A stretch of DNA of 64,000 nucleotides from Nitrospirota bacterium. Lineage in GTDB: Bacteria > Nitrospirota > Thermodesulfovibrionia > Thermodesulfovibrionales > Dissulfurispiraceae. The notes beneath the pieces are model-generated. The model was not told where the DNA came from, did no database searches, and saw nothing but the letters and a program-made list of their open reading frames with translations. The position numbers and the translations under genes were made by a program. Position 1 is the first letter of the stretch; each line of letters begins with the position of its first letter. Of this stretch, positions 11,287-23,157 are shown one piece after another. Location: contig WSNO01000009.1 in the NCBI GenBank assembly GCA_009773415.1, positions 1 through 64,000 of the forward strand, written 5' to 3'.

Positions 11287-11554
11287 CCCAAAATTGTCAT
11301 TGGCAATAGTCCAAATCGCTCATCGCAGCCGGCGAATGTTCCGCTGTGGAGATAGTAAAAGAAGAAATTGATTCTGCGGGAACACAAAGAAGAACTCAAA
11401 AAGAAATCATTACATCCCGGATGTCTGCCGCGATCTTGGCATCCCCTGCATTAATCTGCTCGGCCTCATGCGTCGCGAACGTTGGACTTATTAAGGACGA
11501 ATCAACGTAAAACCAATAGATGCTTGATGTCTCCCTGCTTCTGAATCATACATC
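11287..11554. other. Island left end, no recognisable gene
   Basis: Between attL and the DUF499 stop there is no gene I can support. A plus-strand frame (about 11342-11510) and another short one (HYIPDVCRDLGIP...) are open but have neither a start signal nor recognisable motifs. They may be remains of an integrase or transposase, but this cannot be shown. Confidence 0.4.
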
Positions 11555-14500
11555 CTACTCAACCTCAAACCCCTGAGTGGTAAACTTCAGAGTGCGGCTG
11601 TTTTCTGTAACCGTTCGGAAGACACTATCCGGGACGCCTTGCGGAATTTCCGCCTCGATTTCGAGAGTCACTTTGACTGACGCACCCATCAGCCCGGCCA
11701 GATGCGCGATAACCTCATCTGCAATGCGGCTGGCATCTCGTCCTACACGGGTTTCATCAAGCTGCACGCTGCCGTGAAAGCGCTTGGGCTTCGGGGTCTC
11801 AGGCGTAACAGCTTCAGGAGTTCCGACAGTTGATCCGGCTTCTGCGGTTTCACCAAACAGACCGCTCCCGCTGCCGGAAGTGCCACTGGGCAGGCCGCCG
11901 GGGCCTGCCGCCGCTGCTTCGGCAGATATTTGCATCTGTGCTATTTCAGGCCTGACAAGCAGTCCGCCCATGTTATCTTCCGAAACATCAACCCCTTTGC
12001 AGTATCGCAATCCGCGATACCGCCCGGTTGCTTCGTCAAAACTCTCAGCGTACGCGAAAGAGTCGGTGCTCCACGAAAGCAGCGCCAATCCGTCCCGAAT
12101 AGCTTTCAGCAAGACAGCCGGTCCCTTCAGTCGCGGAAGATAGTAGTAACGGGCAAAATCGTCCACGAGTTGCTTGATTGCCACATGGTTGCCGCGCCAG
12201 AGCGGTATTTTGTCGAGTTCGTGACGAAGCAGCGTCGCTGCAAAGCCGGGTACCAATAGTTCATCATTTCGCAATTTCTTGCTTGCCCGAACAGCCAGTG
12301 CGTCCTGGCCGGTCAGACGATAACTCTGCAATACAACATCGCTTTGCGGCGTCGTCTGCGTCGGCACAAGCAGCCATTGGTAAGCTTCGGGAATACGGGC
12401 ATTTACCGAACTGTCAGCGCTTGCCTTCTGTATTTCGGCCTGTTTTACCTGATGTTGTGAGAGATCAAGCGTCTCTCTCTCAGCAACAATGGATTCCCAC
12501 GCAAGATACCTGCGCACTGCTTCATCCAGATCCTGCATACGGCTCTTGTCTACCGCAAGGAACACAAGCGCATTGCGGTATAGTCTCGGAGCAGTGCCTC
12601 GCGTCTCCAGTATTTGCTTTGCCGCCATCTCGGCAGAGCTGTTGCCTTCCTTGGCAAACGGATACTCAATGCGCAACACCACAAGCCGGGCGTCCATATC
12701 GTCCGGCACGTCCTGGCTCAGGTGCGGCAATGGATGCACGCGGCTGAAGTCTCCCTGTTTCCGCAGATCGGCCCGAATGCGTTTGTCCAGCTCCTGCATT
12801 ATTGCGTCGGGGTCGGCCTTGAGCTGCTCGGCCCTGTCCTCGGCCAACTTGGTTACCGTTGGCTGGGTTGAGTACCAGTAGCGCGCGGCATCCTGATAGA
12901 GATAGGTTGCTGCTCCGCTCAGGCGTCTGAGTGCGTCCCCAAAAATAGAAGAAACCTCTCCGGGCATAACGCATCCAAGTTTTATGCGCCGGTCTTCAAG
13001 TCCACGATTTGCCGCCTTTGGTGTCGGGGCTGATCCCAGATAGATTGTTCTGGCAACACGGCGGCAGGCCGCGAATTTGCCAAGGTTCGGCACGTCGGCA
13101 TCAATGCGGAGCGGCAGGGAATTCGGTCCGTCAACATCCTTTTCAATGACCGGTACCCAATTGTCCGAAAGATACCGCGTCAGTTCGTTCTGAACGCGCT
13201 GATCGTCAATAGGAATAGTGGAGGGCATGATGAGCGGATTGCGATCTCCCTTCTCCCACAGACTGTGAATAACGGCAGCCATCAATCGCAGTACGCCCCG
13301 TGTGCGCTGAAACTTCAGGAGCGTTGACCAGTCCGTATAGAGACGGTCGAACACTTCAGGATGTATTGGATACGCAGCTTTAAGCCGCTTCTCATAGTCT
13401 CCTTCATGACATTCCGGAGGGAACTCCTGCTGTTGTGTCCGGTAGAGTTCGGAGAAGGCTTTTGCAACCGTATCGCGGGTCACAAACTGTGTCTGTTCAA
13501 CCAATGGCTCAAAAAGCCTCCTGCGGACGATTTCAAAACTCTCCTCCGCACTTGCCGGATGCCACGACGCTTCCACGCGACCAATCACATTTCTAAGACG
13601 GTCAAGTGCCGCACGGCCCCGCTCACCGCCAACCTCAACGTCATCTGCCTGTGCATGCGGGGAGCCTGACGTATCAGACGCCGGCAAGCTGATAACCAGC
13701 ATACACTGTTTTGCCAGCTTTGCCGATTCAGTCAACACCTGCGAAAAAGAGAAGTGCGTTTCGAAGCTGCCGCCCGGCAGGTCGCTCTGGTCATGCAATT
13801 GACGGGCATAGGCAACCCACTCGTCAATCAGTATCAGACACGGCCCGTATTCATTGAACAGCTCACGCAGCACGTCTCCGGGGCTGGTGGCTCTTTCATC
13901 ATCTGCCTTAATGCGGTCAAACGCCTGCCTACCGCCAAGCTGGTAGGCCAATTCTCCCCAGAGTGTGCGGACGACTGTTCCGTCTTTTTTAACTGAAGGA
14001 TTGCCGGGAGATATTTTGTTGCCAACAAGCACCACCCGTTTCACTTCGGGCAGCTGGGTTACCCCTGCTGTTTGCAGTATGCTGTCCACGCCGAGCAGTT
14101 CGCCGGTCGGTGTGCCCGAAAAAAGGTGATACAGCGCCAGCATCGAGTGCGTCTTGCCGCCGCCGAAGTTTGTCTGCAACTGCACTACCGGATCTCCGTC
14201 GTCTCCTGCCAGACGCCGTACTGCCCCAGCCAGAAGCGCCTTCAGGCTCTCGGTCAGGTAGGTGCGGCGAAAAAAATCAGCCGGATTTTTGTACTCATCA
14301 GCTGCGTCTTTCAGGTTCAGATGAACCTGCCAAAGGTCAGCAGCAAACTCAGCCTGCTGGTACCGACCGCTCGCCACGTCTTTATGCGGGCTCACCACTT
14401 CGCGCCACGGCTTCAGGGCTCCAGCCCCCTGGCTTTCGATAACGGTTCCCGATGAACGCCGCTTTTCGCTTCGCACCTGCTCGTCGAAGATCACGCGCAT

Positions 14501-14917
14501 AAGTTCCATACGCATCTTTTCTACCTCATCCGCTTCAGGTGCGGAAACAGCTGTCAGAAGACGTGCAGCGCTATCGAGCGCGCGCAGCGCATCATTTGAG
14601 CTGAACGGGTTCTGGTGTGCCCAGCGGTTCCTGACATCGCGAAGTTCACTGACGAGCGTTCTCTCTGCCGGGCCAAGAATCTTCTTGAACACCAAATGCC
14701 ATTTGTCCCACATGACAGCCAGAACGACCGATACATCACCAAAAGGCTCTGACTCAGTACCGGCAAAACTCAATTGCTGAGGTGAAAGAGATGTTTTTAT
14801 CTCCTCAAACCAATTTTGCTGATACTGTGACTTCAGCTCACGCTCCACAAATGGCCGCAGCCCATCCCGGAGCAGATTCAGAGTTTTTGTCACGCGCTCA
14901 TAATTGGTAATTGCCAT
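11555..14917 (-). CDS. DUF499 (COG1483) AAA+-like ATPase with N-terminal Swt1-type HEPN domain
   Basis: A 1120-residue ATPase of the DUF499 family, found in defence islands beside DUF1156 methyltransferases. Residues about 5-120 form a Swt1-like HEPN domain: RNRWAH (Arg96-His101) is the R-x4-H motif that is catalytic in HEPN ribonucleases. The P-loop is TNFGGGKTHS (Lys255-Thr256). Walker B is CLILIDEW (Asp365-Glu366). The tail (about 1040-1120), with RFHGSVQLDETRVGRDA, is the usual conserved DUF499 end, preceded by a Gly/Ser/Pro-rich linker (about 995-1040). It starts 12 bases after the methyltransferase stop. It may remodel or restrict invading DNA with the methyltransferase and helicase; whether the HEPN domain cleaves RNA or only mediates binding is open. 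Confidence 0.88.
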   Translation of the reverse strand: MAITNYERVTKTLNLLRDGLRPFVERELKSQYQQNWFEEIKTSLSPQQLSFAGTESEPFGDVSVVLAVMWDKWHLVFKKILGPAERTLVSELRDVRNRWAHQNPFSSNDALRALDSAARLLTAVSAPEADEVEKMRMELMRVIFDEQVRSEKRRSSGTVIESQGAGALKPWREVVSPHKDVASGRYQQAEFAADLWQVHLNLKDAADEYKNPADFFRRTYLTESLKALLAGAVRRLAGDDGDPVVQLQTNFGGGKTHSMLALYHLFSGTPTGELLGVDSILQTAGVTQLPEVKRVVLVGNKISPGNPSVKKDGTVVRTLWGELAYQLGGRQAFDRIKADDERATSPGDVLRELFNEYGPCLILIDEWVAYARQLHDQSDLPGGSFETHFSFSQVLTESAKLAKQCMLVISLPASDTSGSPHAQADDVEVGGERGRAALDRLRNVIGRVEASWHPASAEESFEIVRRRLFEPLVEQTQFVTRDTVAKAFSELYRTQQQEFPPECHEGDYEKRLKAAYPIHPEVFDRLYTDWSTLLKFQRTRGVLRLMAAVIHSLWEKGDRNPLIMPSTIPIDDQRVQNELTRYLSDNWVPVIEKDVDGPNSLPLRIDADVPNLGKFAACRRVARTIYLGSAPTPKAANRGLEDRRIKLGCVMPGEVSSIFGDALRRLSGAATYLYQDAARYWYSTQPTVTKLAEDRAEQLKADPDAIMQELDKRIRADLRKQGDFSRVHPLPHLSQDVPDDMDARLVVLRIEYPFAKEGNSSAEMAAKQILETRGTAPRLYRNALVFLAVDKSRMQDLDEAVRRYLAWESIVAERETLDLSQHQVKQAEIQKASADSSVNARIPEAYQWLLVPTQTTPQSDVVLQSYRLTGQDALAVRASKKLRNDELLVPGFAATLLRHELDKIPLWRGNHVAIKQLVDDFARYYYLPRLKGPAVLLKAIRDGLALLSWSTDSFAYAESFDEATGRYRGLRYCKGVDVSEDNMGGLLVRPEIAQMQISAEAAAAGPGGLPSGTSGSGSGLFGETAEAGSTVGTPEAVTPETPKPKRFHGSVQLDETRVGRDASRIADEVIAHLAGLMGASVKVTLEIEAEIPQGVPDSVFRTVTENSRTLKFTTQGFEVE

Positions 14918-14929
14918 GGCCGTCTCCTG

Positions 14930-22965: not shown

Positions 22966-23019
22966 CCGGGCGGCCCAGGCTTCAAAACCATGGGGGTTTC
23001 CGGCAGATTTTGATAAAGC

Positions 23020-23052
23020 AAAACGACTCTAAGCCAAGCTCAGAGCCGTTTT
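23020..23052. other. Hairpin just inside attR
   Basis: AAAACGACTCT and AGAGCCGTTTT form an 11-bp stem with one mismatch around an 11-base loop. It could act as a weak terminator in either direction, or it may be a leftover of a mobile-element end. No gene lies close enough to decide. Confidence 0.45.
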
Positions 23053-23090
23053 CTGCAAATTATCAGCGCCTTGCAAAACCCTGAAGCCGT

Positions 23091-23157
23091 TTTCCTAAAC
23101 CTGGTGTCGCACGTTCGAATCGTGTCGGGGGCGCCATTTTCTATACGTACCATTAAA
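23091..23157 (+). repeat. attR: 67-bp direct repeat, right copy
   Basis: Identical over 67 bases to 11220-11286. It is the displaced 3' part of tRNA-Arg(CCT), lacking the 5' half, so it is not a tRNA gene. The flanking base to the left differs (T against G), which fixes the crossover window within the repeat. Confidence 0.95.

Follow-up and report, generated by a model that had tools for sequence, protein, structure and literature searches.

The window, i.e. the whole stretch of DNA analyzed here, is 64,000 nt long and comprises positions 1–64,000 of contig WSNO01000009.1 of a Nitrospirota bacterium (GCA_009773415.1). At positions 11189–23157 it displays a tRNA-associated region where the three genes of an Hma defense operon (hmaA, hmaB and hmaC) are found together with a toxin-antitoxin-chaperone (TAC) module, mqsR-mqsA-secB (mqsRAC), which is located between hmaA and hmaB. 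Comparison with related loci shows that the hmaA-hmaB junction is a cargo slot for exchangeable modules, several of which are other defense modules. Thus a methylation-based defense operon swaps extra modules, some of them whole defense systems, at one junction. The locus in the window is probably a layered defense, i.e. an Hma operon that carries a self-regulated mqsRAC module as accessory cargo in this slot. The Hma core and MqsR-MqsA-SecB as a phage defense are both known already; their combination and the slot setting are new.

The Hma core genes

Between the direct repeats that bound the island are six intact open reading frames, all on the minus strand, with the transcription order hmaA-mqsR-mqsA-secB-like-hmaB-hmaC. 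The core genes are:

19183–22764, minus strand: hmaA, SNF2 helicase with a C-terminal NOV_C (DUF3883-type) domain, 1193 aa (Pfam; PADLOC HmaA model PDLC00659, 1702 bits; motifs)
14930–17797, minus strand: hmaB, DUF1156 DNA methyltransferase (DPPY), 955 aa (Pfam; PADLOC HmaB model PDLC00660, 1588 bits; motifs)
11555–14917, minus strand: hmaC, HEPN_Swt1 and DUF499 AAA+ ATPase, 1120 aa (Pfam; PADLOC HmaC model PDLC00662, 1154 bits; motifs)

A preliminary description of this DNA had reported six complete same-strand genes in a tRNA-associated island. This is borne out, as the open reading frames are intact and their families are confirmed by Pfam, PADLOC and NCBIfam. The close spacing given there is correct for the overlaps and for the gaps of 12–21 bp; the hmaA-mqsR gap, by contrast, is 60 bp when the start of mqsR is placed at position 19122.

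HmaA displays the Pfam domains SNF2-rel_dom, Helicase_C and NOV_C (2.3e-18), HmaB displays DUF1156 (1.6e-32), and HmaC displays HEPN_Swt1 (6.8e-37) followed by DUF499 (1.4e-34). The PADLOC models cover residues 1–1191 of HmaA, nearly the whole of HmaB and residues 167–1118 of the 1120 of HmaC. Short motifs are also present: GAGKT, DEAH and GYDI...EAK in HmaA, DPFAGGG and DPPY in HmaB, and in HmaC RNRWAH within the HEPN domain and GGGKT and LILIDE within DUF499. We take these motifs (RNRWAH, GGGKT, DEAH, DPPY etc.) to be those of the respective enzyme classes.

All three core proteins fit Hma, alias Type-1 BREX-related (BR), and by sequence the core is assigned to this system. The defense operon that had been proposed is thus Hma. 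It had been presented as a predicted co-occurrence of families, which is no longer apt, as the system has been named Hma (PMC8565338) and Type-1 BR (PMC12839542). HmaB is labeled a 5-methylcytosine (m5C) enzyme in PMC8565338 and an N6-adenine enzyme in PMC12839542; its DPPY motif would fit the latter rather than the former. Two other systems were considered and rejected. BREX (types 1–6), with its PglZ and BrxC, does not fit: no match to PglZ is found among the six proteins, and the ATPase is of the DUF499/HmaC type, although HmaA resembles BrxH. DISARM, with its drmA/drmB (DUF1998) core, does not fit either: HmaA resembles DrmD but scores 402 bits with DrmD and 213 bits with DrmA versus 1702 bits with the HmaA model, and the six proteins give no match to DUF1998.

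The hmaA-hmaB junction

Relatives of HmaB were gathered from a genome set with a single representative of each species. The best 80 of 542 confirmed, by similarity to the HmaB of the window, were analyzed together with two loci from genome G033, which gives a sample of 82 loci (L033–L114) that leans to the close relatives of the window. Slot counts refer to 64 of the 82; in the other 18, which were dropped, hmaA or hmaB was missing, truncated at a contig end, disrupted in frame or rearranged. Genes were called by a simple longest-open-reading-frame script, and gene counts in the slot are approximate; the script missed mqsR in two loci discussed below (L138 and L139), where tblastn found it whole. 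The order hmaA-hmaB-hmaC on one strand is found in the window and in 58 of the 64 loci; the other six show no downstream hmaC.

One or more genes are present at the hmaA-hmaB junction in 52 of the 64 loci, and no gene is called there in 12. Among the 52 filled slots, 50 have a gene of at least 100 aa that is co-oriented with the operon, and the remaining two (L065 and L072) have opposite-strand frames only. Counted by genes, with the same minimum of 100 aa, 102 of 123 in the slot are co-oriented with the operon. In the 58 three-gene loci hmaA and hmaB are 300 bp or more apart 47 times and hmaB and hmaC 25 times, and the median gaps are 1488.5 bp and 16 bp, respectively.

The slot contents were compared with Pfam (35 sequences) and PADLOC (20 sequences), out of 138 slot open reading frames. 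These were cluster representatives and larger singletons, a non-random choice, and some share clusters (L041/L053 and L033/L055). Pfam families found in the slot include an AAA_21 ATPase (an 11-member cluster by phmmer), NYN (5-member), DUF4062 with HATPase_c_4 (7-member), and sacsin-like HATPase proteins of 1.2–1.5 thousand residues in four loci. Others are HNH, RloB, PIN, GmrSD_N, DUF4143/AAA_14, YhcG, AbiJ_NTD4 and dynamin, a ThsB-type TIR protein beside a membrane protein, Hsp70, a metallo-beta-lactamase fold and, in one locus, a transposase. Fourteen of the 20 proteins (8/10 and 6/10) match PADLOC defense models at E ≤ 1e-8. The matches are to AbiLi, AbiLii, PtuB of Septu, TmtA (N-terminal part), PDC-S01, PDC-S02, PDC-S32, PDC-S64, PDC-M48B and HEC-09, with partial matches in L050 (Aga model, 2.5e-9) and L080 (PDC-M55C, 3.8e-26).

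The slot of L034 displays a member of the AAA_21 ATPase cluster (phmmer) followed by a PtuB-type protein (PADLOC), and the slots of L067, L110 and L113 have members of the same two clusters (phmmer). Hma was named as a three-gene operon with 1,638 instances in 26 phyla, often with Septu type I (PMC8565338). A slot holding an AAA_21 and PtuB-type pair offers a reason for this association, and would account for the fact that Hma first came to notice via Septu.

Matches to HmaB are also found in 85 plasmid-collection records and seven IMG/VR contigs. In Thermus plasmids (records H8, H10, H11, H15–H17 and others) the HmaB match covers a gene annotated as a Fic family protein, and Fic proteins may be a further Hma neighbor. 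Three loci (L088, L092 and L103) have two HmaB matches on opposite strands, and L103 also has an opposite-strand HmaA. L073 and L100 have an HmaB match and, in 10 kb per side, no HmaA or HmaC match by phmmer; they are possibly orphan or rearranged loci. The row nearest to the window by path differs between the HmaA and HmaB trees (L063 versus L040), which could reflect recombination at the slot or tree error.

The toxin-antitoxin-chaperone module in the window

The slot of the window is occupied by three genes:

18796–19122, minus strand: mqsR toxin (RNase family), 108 aa, likely ATG start at 19122 (Pfam MqsR_toxin 4.9e-27, for the longer frame; PDB 3hi2, 4e-11)
18255–18803, minus strand: mqsA antitoxin, 182 aa (Pfam MqsA_antitoxin 3.9e-28; NCBIfam TIGR03830; PDB 3gn5)
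17819–18265, minus strand: secB-like chaperone (Pfam SecB 4.1e-18)

The three genes are co-oriented with the Hma genes and embedded between helicase and methyltransferase in their operon, as had been described, and they belong to a class shown to act in phage defense (PMC9519451). The reading frames overlap by 8 bp (mqsR/mqsA) and 11 bp (mqsA/secB); secB and hmaB are separated by 21 bp, and hmaB and hmaC by 12 bp. The likely start of mqsR is the ATG at 19122 and not the TTG at 19176, because the former matches the start of the homologue in a second Hma locus, L081. This start leaves the 60-bp gap after hmaA, which houses a promoter-like site and a palindrome.

MqsR and MqsA both match their Pfam families, and an NCBIfam match is found for MqsA alone. 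The SecB-like protein aligns weakly with solved SecB structures (PDB). Residues 7–135 of the 182 of MqsA align with PDB 3gn5, which leaves a C-terminal extension of about 47 aa beyond the E. coli MqsA. In an AlphaFold2 model made from a two-row alignment, residues 130–182 have a predicted local distance difference test (pLDDT) value below 50. The extension is a candidate chaperone-addiction domain (ChAD), for which such low pLDDT is as expected. A MqsRA-type TAC has been found to depend on its chaperone, and the ChAD is highly variable (PMC5105189).

Occurrence of the module

The full mqsR-mqsA-secB set is found at the hmaA-hmaB junction in the window and in one of the 82 other loci, L081 (Deltaproteobacteria bacterium Meg22_1012_Bin_147). 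Identities between the two are 58% for MqsR, 63% for MqsA and 53% for the SecB-like protein. The slot of L057 has an MqsA-like N-terminal fragment only. Twenty-one further loci were inspected, 14 from the phylum of L081 and seven IMG/VR contigs; three of them (L197, L225 and L226) show no hmaA, and none of the 18 with visible hmaA and hmaB has the TAC. The HmaB proteins of the window and L081 belong to different clades in a fasttree tree with weak deep forks, which gives no support to a shared HmaB ancestor for the two loci that carry the TAC. Since the TAC is present in the window and in just one of 82 other loci, the latter in another HmaB clade, it appears to be interchangeable and not a fixed part of one machine.

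At a threshold of 1e-15, 22 of the 395 genomes in the window's phylum have relatives of the SecB-like protein (23 matches, window included); at 1e-20, three of 395 genomes in the phylum of L081 do (L081 included). Of the 22 matches outside the window, 20 neighborhoods of up to 18.5 kb each were fetched, G131 and G371 being left out; several end at contig ends. They include standalone TACs, of which L138 and L139 come from the window's own order. Two SecB-like genes from this order are broken by in-frame stops or frame shifts (G111:C1:944028-944381 in L144 and G110:C1:670958-671224 in L148), hinting at TAC decay.

A plasmid or a phage origin of the TAC was considered and rejected. A tblastn search with the SecB-like protein gives 14 plasmid-collection records (E 6e-10 to 4e-6, 31%–40% identity), none covering 80% of the query, and three phage records (E 2e-9 to 3e-7); one IMG/VR scan shows no relative.

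The promoter and palindrome upstream of mqsR

Two elements are located in the hmaA-mqsR gap:

19148–19176, minus strand: sigma-70-like promoter TTGACA-17-CATAAT with its -10 element inside the palindrome (11/12 matches, best of six sites scanned)
19143–19157, minus strand: palindrome GTATCATAATGATAC, candidate MqsA operator (single exact copy in the 2.46-Mb genome; common to standalone TACs)

The promoter begins just past the hmaA stop codon. Six promoter-like sites are present in the region, and the five others score 9/12. Within the window, 0.05 matches to the palindrome would be expected by chance if as many as two mismatches are allowed. Among the nine TACs with an MqsR homologue, the exact palindrome is found upstream of mqsR in seven (window, L081, L138, L139, L142, L143 and L145) and a one-base variant in two (L148 and L150). 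TTGACA is located 16–18 bp from the -10 element in the window, L081, L138, L139 and L143, and TTGACT in L142; neither is present at this distance in the other three of the nine, L145, L148 and L150. Promoter and palindrome are thus common to Hma-borne and standalone TACs, so the module most likely brought its own autoregulation signal, the palindrome being a putative MqsA operator. Five TACs with divergent antitoxins (L146, L149, L151, L153 and L154) have an upstream related palindrome that is one base shorter, TATCATATGATA.

In L081 secB and hmaB overlap by ATGA. With this overlap, and the 21 bp between the two genes in the window, the TAC promoter could also serve hmaB and hmaC, and a regulatory coupling of this kind is plausible from the gene layout. 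Alternatively, hmaB and hmaC could be served by read-through from hmaA or by two weaker promoter-like sites (9/12) within mqsA and secB.

Proposed function and alternatives

Activities, trigger and coupling in the following scheme are proposed from these observations. HmaB would methylate adenines in host DNA, and HmaC (an ORC/Cdc6-like AAA+ protein with a HEPN RNase) and the HmaA helicase-nuclease would attack unmodified incoming DNA. If a phage escapes Hma, its new structural proteins would occupy the SecB-like chaperone, which would leave the C-terminal extension of MqsA unprotected and MqsA open to degradation. The freed MqsR would cut mRNA and halt the infection, the TAC acting as a backup. 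The putative operator and promoter precede the whole series mqsR-mqsA-secB-hmaB-hmaC, so hmaB and hmaC should also be transcribed more strongly once MqsA is lost. TACs are modular phage sensors, and a TAC in a restriction operon would be a natural case of layered immunity.

It is conceivable, if rather doubtful, that the module is a switch, where MqsA on GTATCATAATGATAC represses one promoter for mqsR-mqsA-secB and hmaB-hmaC, and where titration of the chaperone by a phage protein would release the RNase and at the same time increase the levels of methyltransferase and HEPN-ATPase. If this were true, slot cargo in general would be a plug-in sensor or control unit for a constant restriction core. 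The putative shared promoter makes the locus a concrete case for asking if nested modules are simply inherited together with the host operon or are wired into it.

Several findings weigh against a layered defense. Some of the slot cargo is less defense-like (DUF932, ParA-type AAA_31, M78 peptidase, DUF488, trypsin-like, CBS, Hsp70 and transposase), no Pfam family is found for 7 of the 35 slot sequences, and six of the 20 have no PADLOC match. The slot labels (50 of 65 rows, 10 states) are slightly clustered on the HmaB tree, with 29 changes compared with a mean of 33.3 and a minimum of 28 in 300 shuffles, two of which gave 29 or fewer; slot turnover is thus nearly, not quite, as fast as random. 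The six promoter-like sites are at shuffle level (4.6, standard deviation 2.4). The TAC is a rare cargo, as given above, and no Hma gene is found by phmmer in the 20 standalone-TAC neighborhoods. Ten neighbor genes from seven standalone TACs were compared with Pfam: HsdR (in L154) is the sole defense gene, one is an RHS-repeat protein, and the rest are ordinary. A defense role of this TAC lineage is thus borrowed from E. coli. In addition, the MqsR of the window is nearer to those of L138 (64%) and L139 (63%) than to that of L081 (58%), and the MqsA proteins of the window and L081 are sisters at just 80/85 support. The SecB-like protein of the window is 57% and 56% identical to those of L138 and L139, compared with the 53% for L081. 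As the standalone modules are at least as close as that of L081, there is no Hma-specific TAC lineage by this measure, and the two TACs found in Hma loci appear to have been captured separately.

These relationships bear on whether the module is a passenger, i.e. a standalone TAC with its own promoter that entered a permissive intergenic site and has no functional link to Hma. The closeness of L138 and L139, with the same promoter and palindrome, and the occurrence in only one other Hma locus would both fit. The same junction and orientation are used in two HmaB clades, though, and secB overlaps hmaB by ATGA in L081. A rough estimate gives a chance of 0.009 (TAC density of the window's phylum) or 0.0007 (density of the phylum of L081) for a TAC in any of 82 slots of 5 kb, with assumed genome sizes of 2.7 and 3.2 Mb and uniform placement; defense genes cluster, contrary to uniform placement, so the real chance is higher. 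We consider a passenger unlikely. The preliminary description had proposed a count of mqsRA-secB inside homologous operons, with near absence pointing to a chance insertion. The module is indeed nearly absent (1/82), which speaks against a composite system, but the slot setting looks unlike a chance insertion: 52 of 64 slots are filled, 14 of 20 tested proteins match PADLOC models, and the second TAC occupies this junction in another HmaB clade.

The module could instead be an addiction or guard cargo that prevents loss or silencing of the hma island. Once the operon is lost or blocked, decay of unstable MqsA and SecB would free MqsR, and phage sensing would be unneeded. This follows classic toxin-antitoxin logic; the TAC is flanked on both sides by same-strand core genes, and the direct repeats that bracket the island could recombine. 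The cargo identified at the junction elsewhere, on the other hand, is mostly of nuclease, RNase or ATPase families and not toxin-antitoxin, and the chaperone, which is a phage sensor in published TACs, adds nothing obvious to plain addiction. Such a role is quite unlikely.

The single composite system originally suggested, taken here as one where the TAC is a suicide arm released specifically when phage anti-restriction proteins hit the methyltransferase/ATPase arm, is highly improbable. It is in keeping with the operon layout and with PARIS-like guards recruited to BREX, as argued in PMC12839542. Beyond the shared layout it finds no support: the TAC is in one of 82 loci besides the window, no sequence link was found between SecB/MqsA and HmaB/HmaC, and the E. 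coli TAC of this class works without Hma (PMC9519451). In the TACs of PMC11618068 and PMC11980606 the trigger is a phage structural protein, acting via the chaperone. A layered defense with the TAC as exchangeable cargo is preferred.

Comparison with known systems

The three core proteins of the window fit the Hma models and have the order hmaA-hmaB-hmaC on one strand, as in the described operon (PMC8565338); the difference is that three TAC genes part hmaA from hmaB. Type-1 BR loci are recorded in 2,446 taxa, with a HEPN-fused ATPase in 1,370 and a helicase-nuclease in 79%, and experimental work on a Halomonas helicase-nuclease is cited (PMC12839542). The window resembles these in its HEPN-DUF499 ATPase, DUF1156 N6-methyltransferase and SNF2 helicase with a C-terminal nuclease. 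HEPN-DUF499 and COG1743-DUF499-helicase loci had earlier been mentioned (PMC3710099; PMC7641849). PMC12839542 describes core loci that have auxiliary or backup nucleases embedded in them; the sections consulted do not state that the hmaA-hmaB junction is a preferred slot, and the words SecB and chaperone are absent from the main text, MqsR not having been looked for there. No description of a TAC inside an Hma or BR operon was found in the literature searched, beyond which lie subscription journals, bioRxiv and supplements.

In E. coli C496_10 the mqsRAC module protects against T2, and induction of extra chaperone inhibits protection (PMC9519451). CmdTAC senses capsid via its chaperone CmdC (PMC11618068), and HigBAC senses the lambda tail protein via a chaperone (PMC11980606). 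The TAC of the window has toxin, antitoxin and SecB-like genes together as in these modules, displays the MqsR and MqsA families, and has a C-terminal antitoxin extension. Whereas these sources present them as independent systems, the TAC of the window is nested in a defense operon with a promoter ahead of two operon genes. BREX with nested PARIS or GmrSD (PMC12839542) is similar in having a second defense module within a methylation-based locus; the window differs in its core (no PglZ in the six proteins) and in its cargo.

The island and its tRNA-Arg site

The island is about 11.9 kb and is flanked by perfect 67-nt direct repeats, of which the left one begins within the tRNA gene:

11189–11265, plus strand: tRNA-Arg, anticodon CCT, integration site (ARAGORN)
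11220–11286, plus strand: direct repeat, left copy, 67 nt (3′ part of tRNA-Arg plus 21 nt; 100% identity, repeat search)
23091–23157, plus strand: direct repeat, right copy, 67 nt (repeat search)

A tRNA-Pro(CGG)/tRNA-Arg(CCT) pair adjoins in all six of the relatives' loci fetched. No integrase is seen among the open reading frames of the island. Phage_integrase gives seven matches in the genome (six above the cut-off), none of them on the window's contig, C24. With no visible integrase, the island may have moved in trans or lost its own enzyme. At the same tRNA-Arg in genomes G017 and G011, a tyrosine integrase gene adjoins the tRNA and partial tRNA copies are 4.6–4.8 kb away. The G017 locus (L185, G017:C20:1-9500, positions 823–5537) has 4.6 kb between tRNA-Arg(CCT) and the partial copy, with a tyrosine integrase and a REP_ORF2-G2P replication protein. 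This suggests an integrative plasmid or filamentous-phage-like element that uses the tRNA-Arg(CCT) site.

About 330 bp (22765–23090) separate hmaA from the right repeat. An 82-aa plus-strand frame (22836–23084) found here looks like a gene fragment; the Pfam scan gives no match for it, and we presume a likeness to the start of an IS481-type transposase. The relative G033 has two Hma loci, L033 (contig C60) and L034 (contig C73), with differing slot cargo, and about 20 kb separate L034 from the same tRNA-Arg gene.

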